A stretch of 64,000 nucleotides of DNA from Olsenella profusa DSM 13989 (GTDB taxonomy: Bacteria > Actinomycetota > Coriobacteriia > Coriobacteriales > Atopobiaceae): positions 124,001-188,000 of the forward strand of contig NZ_JAUSQK010000001.1 of the NCBI RefSeq assembly GCF_030811115.1. The letters run 5' to 3'. Below the pieces are notes generated by a model, which was not told the origin of the DNA, made no database searches, and saw nothing but the letters and a program-made list of their open reading frames with translations. Below, piece after piece: positions 50,782 through 58,659 of the stretch (its first letter is position 1; each line of letters opens with the position of its first letter). Position numbers and translations under genes: made by a program.

Positions 50782-51320
50782 AGGTGGACCCCTTTCGAAA
50801 AAACGGGGCCCCGGTCTACATGGTCGCTGCCTAGGGCGCTCGGCGATGGCGTTGCGCAATTGGAAACTTACATGCTCTCGGGGGCCAACAGAAACGGTTG
50901 TAGAGGCGCTTTGCCCATACATAGTGAATCATACCTTGTTGCATTTGCCCATTGCAAGGCCATGGGACGAAATTCCGTGACAGACGAATGCACGGCGGCA
51001 GCGAGTGCAGCCCTGCGCAGACGTGAGGCCTTGGGTCCTGTGGGTGCGATCTGCGGCGTGTGGGGCGTGTGGGTGCCATCTCCACCCGTGTGGGTGCCGA
51101 TCGGTCCGTGTGGGTGCCTTTCTCCCGGGAGAGGCCAACAAAGCCCCAGTTCGCGAGAAGCCAGAACGGTAGATTGGCACCCACATGCAGGGAATGACAC
51201 CCACACGCCGCGTCTGACAGCCACGGCTGATGCAATCGGACAGCCATGGCAGACGTGTCGTCATCACCGACGGCACGTTGTTGCGTTAGCATGGGACATC
51301 GTGCAGAGGAGGTGGAAGCC
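50782..51320. repeat. rpsA leader/promoter region and TGTGGGTGC element, copy at 51.04-51.21 kb
   Basis: No gene. Direct units TGTGGGTGC lie at 51039, 51068, 51089 and 51109 (the last three 20-21 bp apart), followed by a core with CTTTCTCCCGGGAGAGG, then inverted units GCACCCACA at 51177 and CACCCACAC at 51198. This is the same layout as the elements at 55.9 and 57.3 kb, with diverged spacers. The remaining part, 50.78-51.0 kb, should hold the rpsA promoter. Confidence 0.65.
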
Positions 51321-55781: not shown

Positions 55782-55900
55782 GGGCGCTCCTCGTGAGGTT
55801 GCATGTGGTCCCCTCACATTGTAGCGGGGTCAGGCGACGGGCCAGGGAGAGGGGCGGCCATCCACGGGAGCCATCCATGGCTGCGGGTGCGCATTCCCCG

Positions 55901-56060
55901 CCCTGTGGGTGCGAATCGGGCCGTGTGGGTGCGAATCGGGCCGTGTGGGTGCGAATCGGGCCGTGTGGGTGCTTTTCTCCTGCGGACGGCCCACAAAATG
56001 GCAGGTCGCGGGAGGACCGTCCGGGAAAAAAGCACCCACACGCAGCAAAAGGCACCCACA
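55901..56060. repeat. TGTGGGTGC element, left copy flanking the AbiEi-like gene
   Basis: Units of 20 bp (consensus CCGTGTGGGTGCGAATCGGG) start at 55901, 55921 and 55941; a last unit at 55961 runs into the core, and a degenerate one sits at 55881. GTGTGGGTGCTTTT (55963-55976) pairs perfectly with AAAAGCACCCACAC (56028-56041), with an inner stem CGGACGG/CCGTCCG (55983-55989/56017-56023). A second inverted unit lies 20 bp on, at 56052. The last 152 bp match 57294-57445 with one mismatch. Confidence 0.85.
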
Positions 56061-56227
56061 TGCAGCAGGTTGATCATCCCATCCCTCATCTGCAGGACGT
56101 TAAGGTGTCATTTGTCAAATCTGCCGGTGGTAGTAAAAAAGAAAGTCATCTGACGGTACCAGAATCGCACGTAGAGTGAACGGTACATCCCACGGGAGAG
56201 GTGGCACGGAACGGGGGCACATATGCC

Positions 56228-57217
56228 ATGGAGGACCTGATGAATCGCATGGGTATGGCTGAACGTGCTGGTCTGCTGTATGCACCCACCTGCAAGGCCG
56301 AGCAGAACGCGCTTAAGGGTATGACCAACGGTAGTGTCATCACGCGTCCCTACCCTGGGATGTTCGCCCGTGCCCCCAGCTGGGATGCCCTGACCGTCTC
56401 CGAGCGGCACCTGAGGATGATGCGCACGCTCGCGCGCATGCACCCGGATTGGGTGTTCTGCGGCCCCAGTGCCGCCCTTGTCCTCGGTTTCGACGTCTCG
56501 AACTCATGCATGCATCGGCTGCATCTCGTATGCTCCGGTGAGGCTTCGAGGCGGAATACCGCATCGGTCATGTGGCATCATCTGCGTGATATGAAGGTGA
56601 TGACCGTCGGGGGGATGAGAGTCTCCTCCGCCGAACGGACGATCGTCGATTGTATGCGTTGGCTCGACTTCTCGCGCGGCCTTGCCATTGCAGACTCCGC
56701 CCTGCGCGTATGCGCGAAGGATCAGGACTGGCTTCTGGCACGCTGCCACGCGGTTGACCGGCGGACGCATGGGCTCCGTCAGGCAAAGCTGGTGGCGGCA
56801 TATGCGGATGCGCGGGCGGAGAGCGGCGGCGAGTCCATTGCTCGCGCAGCGATGATCGAAGAGGGCTTCTCCCTGCCGATGCTGCAGGTTGAGATACCTG
56901 ATCCCCTCAGCAGCACGCCACATCGTGTTGACTTTCTGTGGACGCTCGCAGACGGGCGGTGGGTGCTTGGGGAGTTCGATGGGCGGGAGAAGTATCGCAA
57001 CCCGCGCATGACGCGGGGGAAGGATGCCGTGGACGTGCTTGCCGACGAGCGCCTGCGCGAGTCTCATCTGACACTTGGTGGCAGTGTGGTGCGCTTCTCC
57101 TGGCAGGACATGAGGAATCGGCGCCGCCTTGCGCACCTTCTCACGGCATATGGCATCCCACATGAGCGTGAGCCCCGGCGGCTCGACCTACGCCCTCTCG
57201 ATTGCCGGAAGATTTGA
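56228..57217 (+). CDS. AbiEi/DUF559-like protein with a nuclease-like C-terminal motif
   Basis: 329 residues, cytoplasmic. The N-terminal half (MHPDWVFCGPSAALVLGFDVS, HLRDMKVMTVGGMRVSSAERTIVDCMRWLD) resembles the AbiEi-type antitoxin/transcription-regulator proteins common in actinobacteria. The C-terminal part has a DUF559/Vsr-like pattern: HRVDFLWTLADGRWVLGEFDGREKY, with Asp and the ExDG-x-x-K acids of a PD-(D/E)XK-like fold. No AbiEii-like partner lies next to it. The start at 56228 is tentative; a GTG at 56201 is possible. It is bracketed by two nearly identical repeat elements, suggesting it moves or is exchanged as a cassette. A role in defence or DNA repair is plausible only. Confidence 0.65.
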   Translation: MEDLMNRMGMAERAGLLYAPTCKAEQNALKGMTNGSVITRPYPGMFARAPSWDALTVSERHLRMMRTLARMHPDWVFCGPSAALVLGFDVSNSCMHRLHLVCSGEASRRNTASVMWHHLRDMKVMTVGGMRVSSAERTIVDCMRWLDFSRGLAIADSALRVCAKDQDWLLARCHAVDRRTHGLRQAKLVAAYADARAESGGESIARAAMIEEGFSLPMLQVEIPDPLSSTPHRVDFLWTLADGRWVLGEFDGREKYRNPRMTRGKDAVDVLADERLRESHLTLGGSVVRFSWQDMRNRRRLAHLLTAYGIPHEREPRRLDLRPLDCRKI

Positions 57218-57265
57218 GCCACAGGAGACGAGGCCAGCCGTTCCCGTGGATGCTCTTCTCTCCAT

Positions 57266-57445
57266 CCGTGTGGGTGCGAATCGGGCCGTGTGGGTGCGAA
57301 TCGGGCCGTGTGGGTGCGAATCGGGCCGTGTGGGTGCGAATCGGGCCGTGTGGGTGCTTTTCTCCTGCGGACGGCCCACAAAATGGCAGGTCGCGGGAGG
57401 ACCGTCCGGGAAAAAAGCACCCACACGTAGCAAAAGGCACCCACA
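57266..57445. repeat. TGTGGGTGC element, right copy flanking the AbiEi-like gene
   Basis: Four perfect 20-bp units begin at 57266, 57286, 57306 and 57326, and a fifth runs into the core at 57346. The core and inverted units match the left copy with one difference (CACACGTAGC here, CACACGCAGC there). Unit number differs from the left copy by one, as expected for tandem-repeat length change. The rest of the 57218-57582 spacer (start of the zinc-ribbon gene upstream region) shows nothing else. Confidence 0.85.
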
Positions 57446-57582
57446 GGGCAGGAAATGCGTACCCGCAGAGGACTGGCATGAAGGAAGGGGACGTCACACC
57501 AATCGAGTGCGTGGCGGTTGCGCACGGTGCTACATTGATAGGCATGACAACGGCTCATGTCCGCATGGCGCGAGGAGTCCCC

Positions 57583-58659
57583 ATGTTCTGTCCCACCTGC
57601 AGTGTCGCCATCGAAAAGACGGCCCCGACACCGGAGGCGTCTGGCACGCCGAAGCGCATGCGTCCCCTCCGACCCCTCGTGGCGATCGCCATCATCCTCA
57701 GCATCACCGCCGTGGACATCGTCGGATATCTCGTCTGGAGCACGCTCGCCCAACCCAAGACGGTGCAGGTGAGCTTTCAGATTGACGCCCCTGGGTATGG
57801 CGCGACGACCGATCCCAAGATCCCATTGCACCTCTCGGGCACGACATTGGAGGGCACGTCCGTCGACGGGAACGTCTATCTCAGCGACATCTCGGACACC
57901 GTTGTCGTGCAGCCAGGCAGCCACACCGTCACGGCACCATAGGAGGCGACGAATACGACAGGCTGCTCGACGCATCCAGGCGCTATGCGCAAGGCGGTGG
58001 GACCAGCCAGGACAGCATAGACAGCCCTGTACAAAGGACGCAGGAGCAGCGCAGACAGATGACCCCCGCCACCTACACATGCTCGACCGAGTCGCTCGCC
58101 GTGGGGAGGACCACCTCCACCTACGTGCAACTGGAGAGCTCCAAGGACGACGCCTATGGAGCCTATGACGACAAGGTCACATACTTCCAGGATGGCATCA
58201 TCTGCATCCTGAACATAGCCTATCAGATCAACGGTGGGGCGCATGGCTGGCAACAGGTCACCACAACGATCGCGAACGTGGACGCGCGCGGTCGTCACTG
58301 TCGCAGAGGCCGTGGGTCTCTCCGATGGCAGCCTGAACTCCCTGTGCCGCAAGGTCCTGGCAGACGATCTCGCCAGAAATCCCTCCGACCTGTATGGAAC
58401 GGACCTCTCCCAACTGCTCGGCGGAAGGAGCAGGGCCGACCATGTGGGCTCGGACCTCGAGTACTGCCTGACGCCTAGCGGCATGCGCGTATGGACGGGA
58501 CCATACCTCGTGGGCAGCTTCGCCTCGGGCTATAGGAACATCCCGATCTGCGACCTCACGGGCACCCATGCGAGCGTGGGCGCGGCGCGCGAGGAGCCAC
58601 CCACCCTCGACGGCACGGGCACCATGACCGGCGCCAACCCCATGCGAGCTAGGGCCTGA
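57583..58659 (+). pseudogene. Zinc-ribbon membrane protein gene broken by at least two frameshifts
   Basis: From ATG 57583 (GCGAGGAG upstream): an N-terminal CPTC that looks like half of a zinc ribbon, a membrane segment (LVAIAIILSITAVDIVGYLVW) and a beta-rich domain (VQVSFQIDAPGYGATTDPKIPLHLSGTTLEG) ending at TAG 57940. The next frame continues EYDRLLDASRRYAQGGG... then TPATYTCSTESLAVGRTTSTYVQLESSKDDAYG to about 58270, and a third frame continues VVTVAEAVGLSDGSLNSLCRKVLADDLARNPSDLYGTDL to TGA at 58657-58659. Loss of the second Cys pair and both shifts point to decay or assembly indels. Surface-located protein of unknown function. Confidence 0.6.

Follow-up and report, generated by a model that had tools for sequence, protein, structure and literature searches.

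Private palindromic repeats bracket genes for predicted AbiEi-Vsr nucleases in Actinomycetota: a possible second, unrelated origin of the REP/RAYT arrangement

Why is a solitary gene for an AbiEi-like protein enclosed by two nearly identical repeats? This question is raised by a locus of Olsenella profusa DSM 13989, the genome of which is a single contig of 2,616,809 bases; the window analyzed here is the stretch of 64,000 nucleotides at positions 124001-188000 of this contig, and positions are given in window coordinates unless a genome is named. Within the window, the segments 55909-56060 and 57294-57445 match in the direct orientation and in register over 152 bp with one mismatch, the two copies being 1385 nt apart. 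This match confirms the first part of an earlier sequence-only reading, which had noted direct repeats of about 152 bp around a lone AbiEi-like gene and proposed that recombination between them could insert or excise the gene as a possible defence cassette. Both elements extend beyond the 152-bp match; in each, GTGGGTGC boxes with a period of 20-24 bp are followed by a centre of 59 bp and then by inverted boxes. The upstream element (E1) covers approximately 55881-56061 on the plus strand, with boxes at 55883, 55905, 55925, 55945 and 55965, the 59-bp centre, and inverted boxes at 56032 and 56052. The downstream element (E2) covers approximately 57245-57468, also on the plus strand, with boxes at 57246, 57270, 57290, 57310, 57330 and 57350, the centre, and inverted boxes at 57417, 57437 and 57459. 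The gene for the predicted AbiEi-like protein with a Vsr-type (DUF559-like) nuclease domain occupies 56201-57217 on the plus strand and encodes 338 aa from GTG, or 329 aa if the ATG at 56228 is the start; the end of E1 is 140-167 nt away from the start of the reading frame, and the bracket leaves too little space for another gene. A third member of the repeat family lies in the window outside the gene bracket, at about 51038-51206 on the plus strand.

The neighbors of the bracketed gene, both named by eye, are polA on the minus strand upstream and a glnA-like gene downstream. Between the bracket and the glnA-like gene (57583-58659), short reading frames overlap in different frames, possibly representing a broken gene; three reading frames downstream of the bracket gave no Pfam match at E<=0.1. 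When the segment 55000-58500 was compared to Rfam at E 5, the best matches were far under the gathering score.

The repeat is not a product of chance because GTGTGGGTGC, with at most one mismatch, occurs 30 times in the window compared to a mean of 8.9 in shuffled sequences, none of which (0/100) reached 30. In the stretches fetched around genome-wide search matches, 35 arrays were identified in DSM 13989 and 37 in the other O. profusa genome (G002), which we take to be that of strain F0195. The box spacing within these elements is mostly 20-22 bp, and in 31 of the 35 arrays, 67 nt separate the last forward box from the first inverted one. E1 and E2 are the closest neighboring arrays in the genome and also the most similar pair among the 29 elements with a full centre: their 59-bp centres are identical, whereas the next pair shows 96.6% identity and the rest at most 86.4%. 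Neighboring elements in general are slightly more similar to each other (mean 0.676 vs 0.639, permutation p 0.004), with two pairs standing out. By eye, neither target duplications at the elements nor covariation in the inter-box spacers were seen. The bracketed gene is the only family member detected in the O. profusa genome. The possibility that the E1/E2 pair is a lone coincidence was discarded in view of the 35 arrays in the genome and the recurrent bracketing across the family that is described below.

The placement of the arrays, which was assessed using a home-made gene caller, bears on the main rival to a nuclease that spreads or maintains its repeat, namely, that the protein is a repressor of its own gene, with the scattered palindromes being further binding sites and the nuclease domain doing something else. 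Both the AbiEi antitoxin and Rv2827c are reported to bind 23-bp inverted repeats in their own promoters, two and four such repeats, respectively (PMC7319586), and E1 is located upstream of the gene, at the distance given above, as an operator would be. However, of the 32 arrays found beyond the window, 12 are flanked by converging genes, a setting in which a promoter would not be expected; two extend into the end of a called gene, and no called gene contains an array in full. Together with the position and length of the repeat copies in other genomes (see below), these observations render an operator or regulon unlikely as the explanation.

The centres of two O. profusa elements (G000:C1:1020828-1022585, L077, and G000:C1:1588470-1590229, L086) are interrupted at an identical position by an IS110-family element, and the two IS copies are 98.9% alike, indicating that the O. 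profusa palindromes attract mobile DNA. Some insertion sequences are known to target REPs, and IS621 is one that sits in such repeats. The same has been reported for ISPpu9 (PMC8450116). The insertions are thus compatible with a hitchhiking scenario in which the repeats are the product of a different enzyme, and insertion of the gene at or between repeats has occurred again and again. This scenario appears quite improbable given that the repeats vary from gene to gene and are common mainly to similar proteins, that within one genome bracketed paralogues have unrelated repeats (see below), and that both repeat copies are close to the gene.

Comparison of the two O. profusa strains and of the genus addresses the cassette proposal, under which homologous recombination between the direct copies leads to gain and loss of the gene. 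The gene and its flanks match strain F0195 at 97.5-97.8%, and both O. profusa genomes retain the gene along with E1 and E2. In another genome of the same genus (G001), the glnA-like gene directly follows polA and the bracketed gene is missing from the site. The gene is accessory at this locus, and the cassette proposal, with its putative excision or insertion by recombination, is supported in part. No movement of an array was seen between the strains: for 29 of the 35 DSM 13989 arrays, the matching flanks in G002 also enclose an array, but the sequence compared had been selected around arrays in either strain, so that an empty site could hardly show in this comparison. For five G002 arrays (C20:9358, C59:245, C69:7806, C69:18964 and C6:105231), a complete counterpart was not found within the stretches compared. 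For the first of these (G002:C20:9358-9516, L141), the flanks were not found in the DSM 13989 stretches compared, and the box pair is absent from the genome-wide list for DSM 13989; this array may represent an insertion polymorphism or strain-specific DNA.

A segment of approximately 5.4 kb in DSM 13989 (G000:C1:1264720-1270112, L073), which is bounded by elements and carries genes that by eye look transporter-like, is missing from G002; there, a single element (G002:C59:4301-4456, L133) is found between the outer flanks. The replacement of an element-bounded segment by one element lends some support to the cassette proposal, but the single element does not correspond to a simple chimera of the outer pair in DSM 13989. 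Breakpoints between the strains coincide with elements in some cases only, so the elements are not general breakpoints. As for concerted evolution of E1 and E2, it rests on one site, with GGGAAAAAAGC in both DSM 13989 copies and GGGAGAAAAGC in both F0195 copies; unlike this site, another one preserves the difference between E1 and E2 in both strains.

The relationship between the gene and its repeats becomes clearer when homologous loci are considered. The gene is present in 74 of 121 genomes in the family search and in 94 of 396 genomes of the phylum searched with an HMM. Relatives of the gene do not carry the O. profusa repeat: among L032-L069, it is found only in the F0195 locus (L032). Instead, in a repeat search of five relatives, the gene of four of them proved to be flanked on either side by a repeat of another sequence. 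In a scan of the genome contigs, 17 of 38 loci showed a direct match between the left and right flanks at 40 bits or more; when placements of equal length were taken from other parts of these loci as controls, 5 of 635 matched, all five in L034 and L044. Bracketing was also detected for 17 of the 29 loci in a further set from the HMM search and, with an earlier gene placement, for 19 of 43 additional loci. Pooling the distinct loci under a single placement method and the 40-bit threshold, with duplicates dropped (L204, L205 and L206 repeat L035, L033 and L034, respectively, and one locus at a contig edge was dropped as well), we found a direct bracket at 61 of 110 loci, an inverted one at 50, and a bracket in either orientation at 67; among mismatched pairs of left and right flanks, 28 of 11,990 match. 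The remaining 43 loci have no bracket at 40 bits in either orientation.

The orientation of the repeats differs between groups: in the named Actinomycetes loci (L039-L069), the inverted match is better in 14 of the 17 brackets, whereas in the other loci the direct match is better in 38 of 50. The prevalence of inverted copies in the former group adds to the evidence against a cassette excised through direct repeats, which we now regard as a highly improbable account of these loci; with some brackets inverted, 67 of the 110 loci bracketed, and the repeat dispersed in all four genomes tested, a protein with cognate repeats fits the frequent bracketing and dispersal better than a one-off cassette does. 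In the direct brackets, the like copy is located just downstream of the gene, at a median of 32 nt after the stop codon, which argues against an operator, and the match between bracket copies has a median length of 77 nt and a median identity of 85%, more than a short operator requires.

The repeats are private to their genes. The 61 directly bracketed loci fall into 56 repeat families. At 35 bits, none of the 1938 pairs of bracketed loci with protein identity under 60% share a repeat, in contrast to 7 of the 15 pairs above 60%, two of these seven being a single locus that is represented twice. Some weaker likeness extends below this level of identity: the repeats of L055 and L060 score 34.6 bits at 47.5% protein identity, and those of L063 and L066, and of L045 and L064, also resemble each other at 56-60%. 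Privacy is apparent even within a genome: the repeats of the three bracketed paralogues of G505 are unrelated to one another, as are those of the four in G034, which argues against hitchhiking. The O. profusa repeat itself is similarly restricted: the exact box pair is present in 3 of the 121 family genomes, namely its own, G002 and G109, and absent from the three other genomes of the genus. G109 contains two arrays of the O. profusa type in a region that aligns with O. profusa over several kilobases at 87%; its own homologue of the gene, which is outside the 110-locus count, is bracketed by a 110-bp repeat (92.7% identity) with a sequence unlike that of the O. profusa repeat.

The bracketing repeat is dispersed in all four genomes tested, with about 35 sites in O. 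profusa, 17 in Nocardioides acrostichi, 8 in G230 and 40 in G273, although this proportion overstates the general rate since the three genomes other than O. profusa were chosen for their clear brackets, and one of them also for an extra copy in its locus. The 17 sites in N. acrostichi differ by at most 3 mismatches from a 32-nt perfect palindrome that has no sites in five other genomes, that of L059 not being among those covered, and the reversed pattern yielded none. The repeats of G230 and of G273 (one contig; 40 of 42 candidates scored) likewise have no sites in five other genomes, and no two G273 sites except those of the bracket are less than 2 kb apart. Altogether, apart from the Olsenella type in G109, the tested repeats were not found outside their own species in the comparison genomes. 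Further copies can also be found near the genes: among 17 bracketed loci compared, four hold one within the roughly 12 kb at hand. Open-frame length does not tell whether the G273 copies are intergenic, as random spots are open as well; in this comparison, L251 and L252 are the same copy. In N. acrostichi, a second, different palindrome-like stretch precedes the 32-nt palindrome at three of the four sites inspected (L187, L189 and L190) and follows it at L188, so that the real element is probably a two-hairpin unit.

Palindromicity is a common property of the repeats: at 30 bits, self-complementarity was detected in 48 of the 61 direct brackets. In G273, the copies form a 24-bp stem in which 97.3% of the cells are paired; the stem alignment comprises 23 of 24 distinct sequences, from 30 of the 40 sites, with L254 left out due to an indel. 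In two pairs of this stem, both partners are changed: a C-G pair becomes T-A in 7 sequences, and a G-C pair becomes A-T or T-A in 9. The resulting 16 cells with changes on both sides compare to 5.3 in shuffles (0 of 500 as high), and the covariation score is 0.102 compared to 0.055 (0 of 500). Two of the five measures are not above the shuffles, namely the number of pairs changed on both sides (2 vs 2.5) and of further pair types (6 vs 7.7); the compensation is confined to two pairs. The palindromicity of the G273 repeat is kept, through selection or arm-to-arm copying.

What kind of protein accompanies these repeats? The window protein matches no Pfam or NCBIfam family at E<=1, and a profile search with PADLOC, of the kind proposed in the sequence-only reading, gave modest AbiEi matches, the best for the window protein at E 2.2e-6. 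Among the 18 aligned members, 7 match Pfam AbiEi_4; a few members match Pfam DUF559 weakly, with the best homologue at 17.8 bits compared to the cut-off of 20.6, and the window protein has no DUF559 match. An AlphaFold2 model built from 18 homologues has a mean pLDDT of 88.6 and a pTM of 0.85. Given that a Foldseek search against the PDB yielded no match at E 0.001 or better, the fold assignment comes from a second structural comparison, in which residues 199-311 superimpose on the homing endonuclease I-Bth0305I (3r3p; Z 10.5, rmsd 2.5, 93 aligned), NGO0050 (Z 8.7) and Vsr (1vsr; Z 7.7, rmsd 3.4), and residues 1-194 on the AbiEi antitoxin of Streptococcus agalactiae (6y8q; Z 8.5, rmsd 6.7, 176 aligned); according to the warning of the tool, a Z under about 8 may mean a common arrangement, and the I-Bth0305I match exceeds that level. 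E202, D235, E249, D251 and K255 are invariant in all 18 aligned members. The protein is accordingly predicted to combine an AbiEi-like part (residues 1-194) with a Vsr/homing-endonuclease-type domain (199-311), which bears out the AbiEi-like gene with a nuclease domain that had been recognized from the sequence. Proteins of this type are rare on the mobile replicons searched: at E 1e-5, the window protein matches 2 of 72,556 plasmid records and 1 of 50,697 phages.

Several likenesses and differences set this family apart from known systems. Its predicted C-terminal fold and conserved acidic residues resemble those of Vsr, I-Bth0305I and DUF559 proteins, but the nuclease is fused to an AbiEi-like part. 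The N-terminal two-thirds of the predicted model fits the S. agalactiae AbiEi of the AbiE type IV toxin-antitoxin system; in contrast to AbiE, no AbiEii-like gene was found beside the window gene, the predicted protein includes the additional C-terminal nuclease domain, and repeats are found both on the two sides of the gene and genome-wide. A homing gene interrupts its own target. Here, the gene has a full repeat on either side and is therefore not a plain interruption of a target; simple homing into one element is accordingly considered unlikely.

Taken together, the bracketing, the private repeat sequences, the dispersal in four genomes and the palindromicity kept in one of them establish an association between the gene and the repeat. 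The interpretation that we consider probable is that each AbiEi-Vsr nuclease recognizes its private palindrome and spreads or maintains it. Under this scenario, the AbiEi-like N-terminal part would recognize the palindrome, a role suggested by the binding of inverted repeats by known AbiEi antitoxins; the C-terminal nuclease would nick or cut at the palindrome; and repair would copy the repeat to new sites or make existing copies alike. The putative role of the protein would then be the one proposed for the RAYT transposases with respect to REP repeats, performed by an unrelated enzyme.

The arrangement indeed resembles that of REPtrons, in which palindromic repeats that are dispersed and private to the gene flank it, paralogues in one genome have different repeats, and some of the flanking repeats are inverted, as reported in PMC3116915 and PMC3733652; in the family described here, too, flanking repeats are present at 67 of the 110 loci, and dispersal includes the genome of O. 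profusa itself. Unlike RAYT, which is an HUH/Y1 tyrosine transposase, the window protein is predicted to be AbiEi plus Vsr-type; the O. profusa elements measure at least 115 bp and are composed of arrayed 20-bp boxes, whereas REPs are 20-40 bp long; and, unlike REPtrons, some genomes have several members of the AbiEi-Vsr family. Dispersed bacterial palindromes have a proposed maker where RAYT genes adjoin them, and a CGTC class of REPs is reported to lack a dedicated transposase (PMC3733652). A search of the literature outside bioRxiv, covering few subscription papers, found in the portions of text available nothing that links AbiEi, DUF559, Vsr or I-Bth0305I to flanking palindromic repeats. 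On balance, we lean slightly towards a second, unrelated origin of the REP/RAYT arrangement, in the form of phylum-wide AbiEi-Vsr nucleases each spreading and maintaining its own family of palindromic repeats. If so, the combination of repeat and enzyme arose more than once, with a non-homologous enzyme, and many actinobacterial genomes carry private repeats produced by AbiEi-Vsr nucleases. In that case, numerous lone genes labelled "AbiEi antitoxin" or DUF559 would serve to make repeats instead of providing defence; a large group of genes currently listed under these labels would thereby gain a function, and dozens of natural protein/repeat pairs would become available to test how nuclease and palindrome stay matched.

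Two minor features of the O. profusa elements may be mentioned. The number of perfect tandem boxes varies between the strains, with seven in F0195 and four in DSM 13989 in the upstream element, and two and five, respectively, in the downstream one; the 20-bp box number at 55905-55965 and 57270-57350 could therefore be a strain-typing marker. Elsewhere in DSM 13989 (G000:C1:91468-97970, L070), a gene is separated by three elements from a second copy that is similar to it but shorter; this gene pair resembles polymorphic-toxin modules (a label assigned by eye), and the centres of the first two elements are 96.6% alike.
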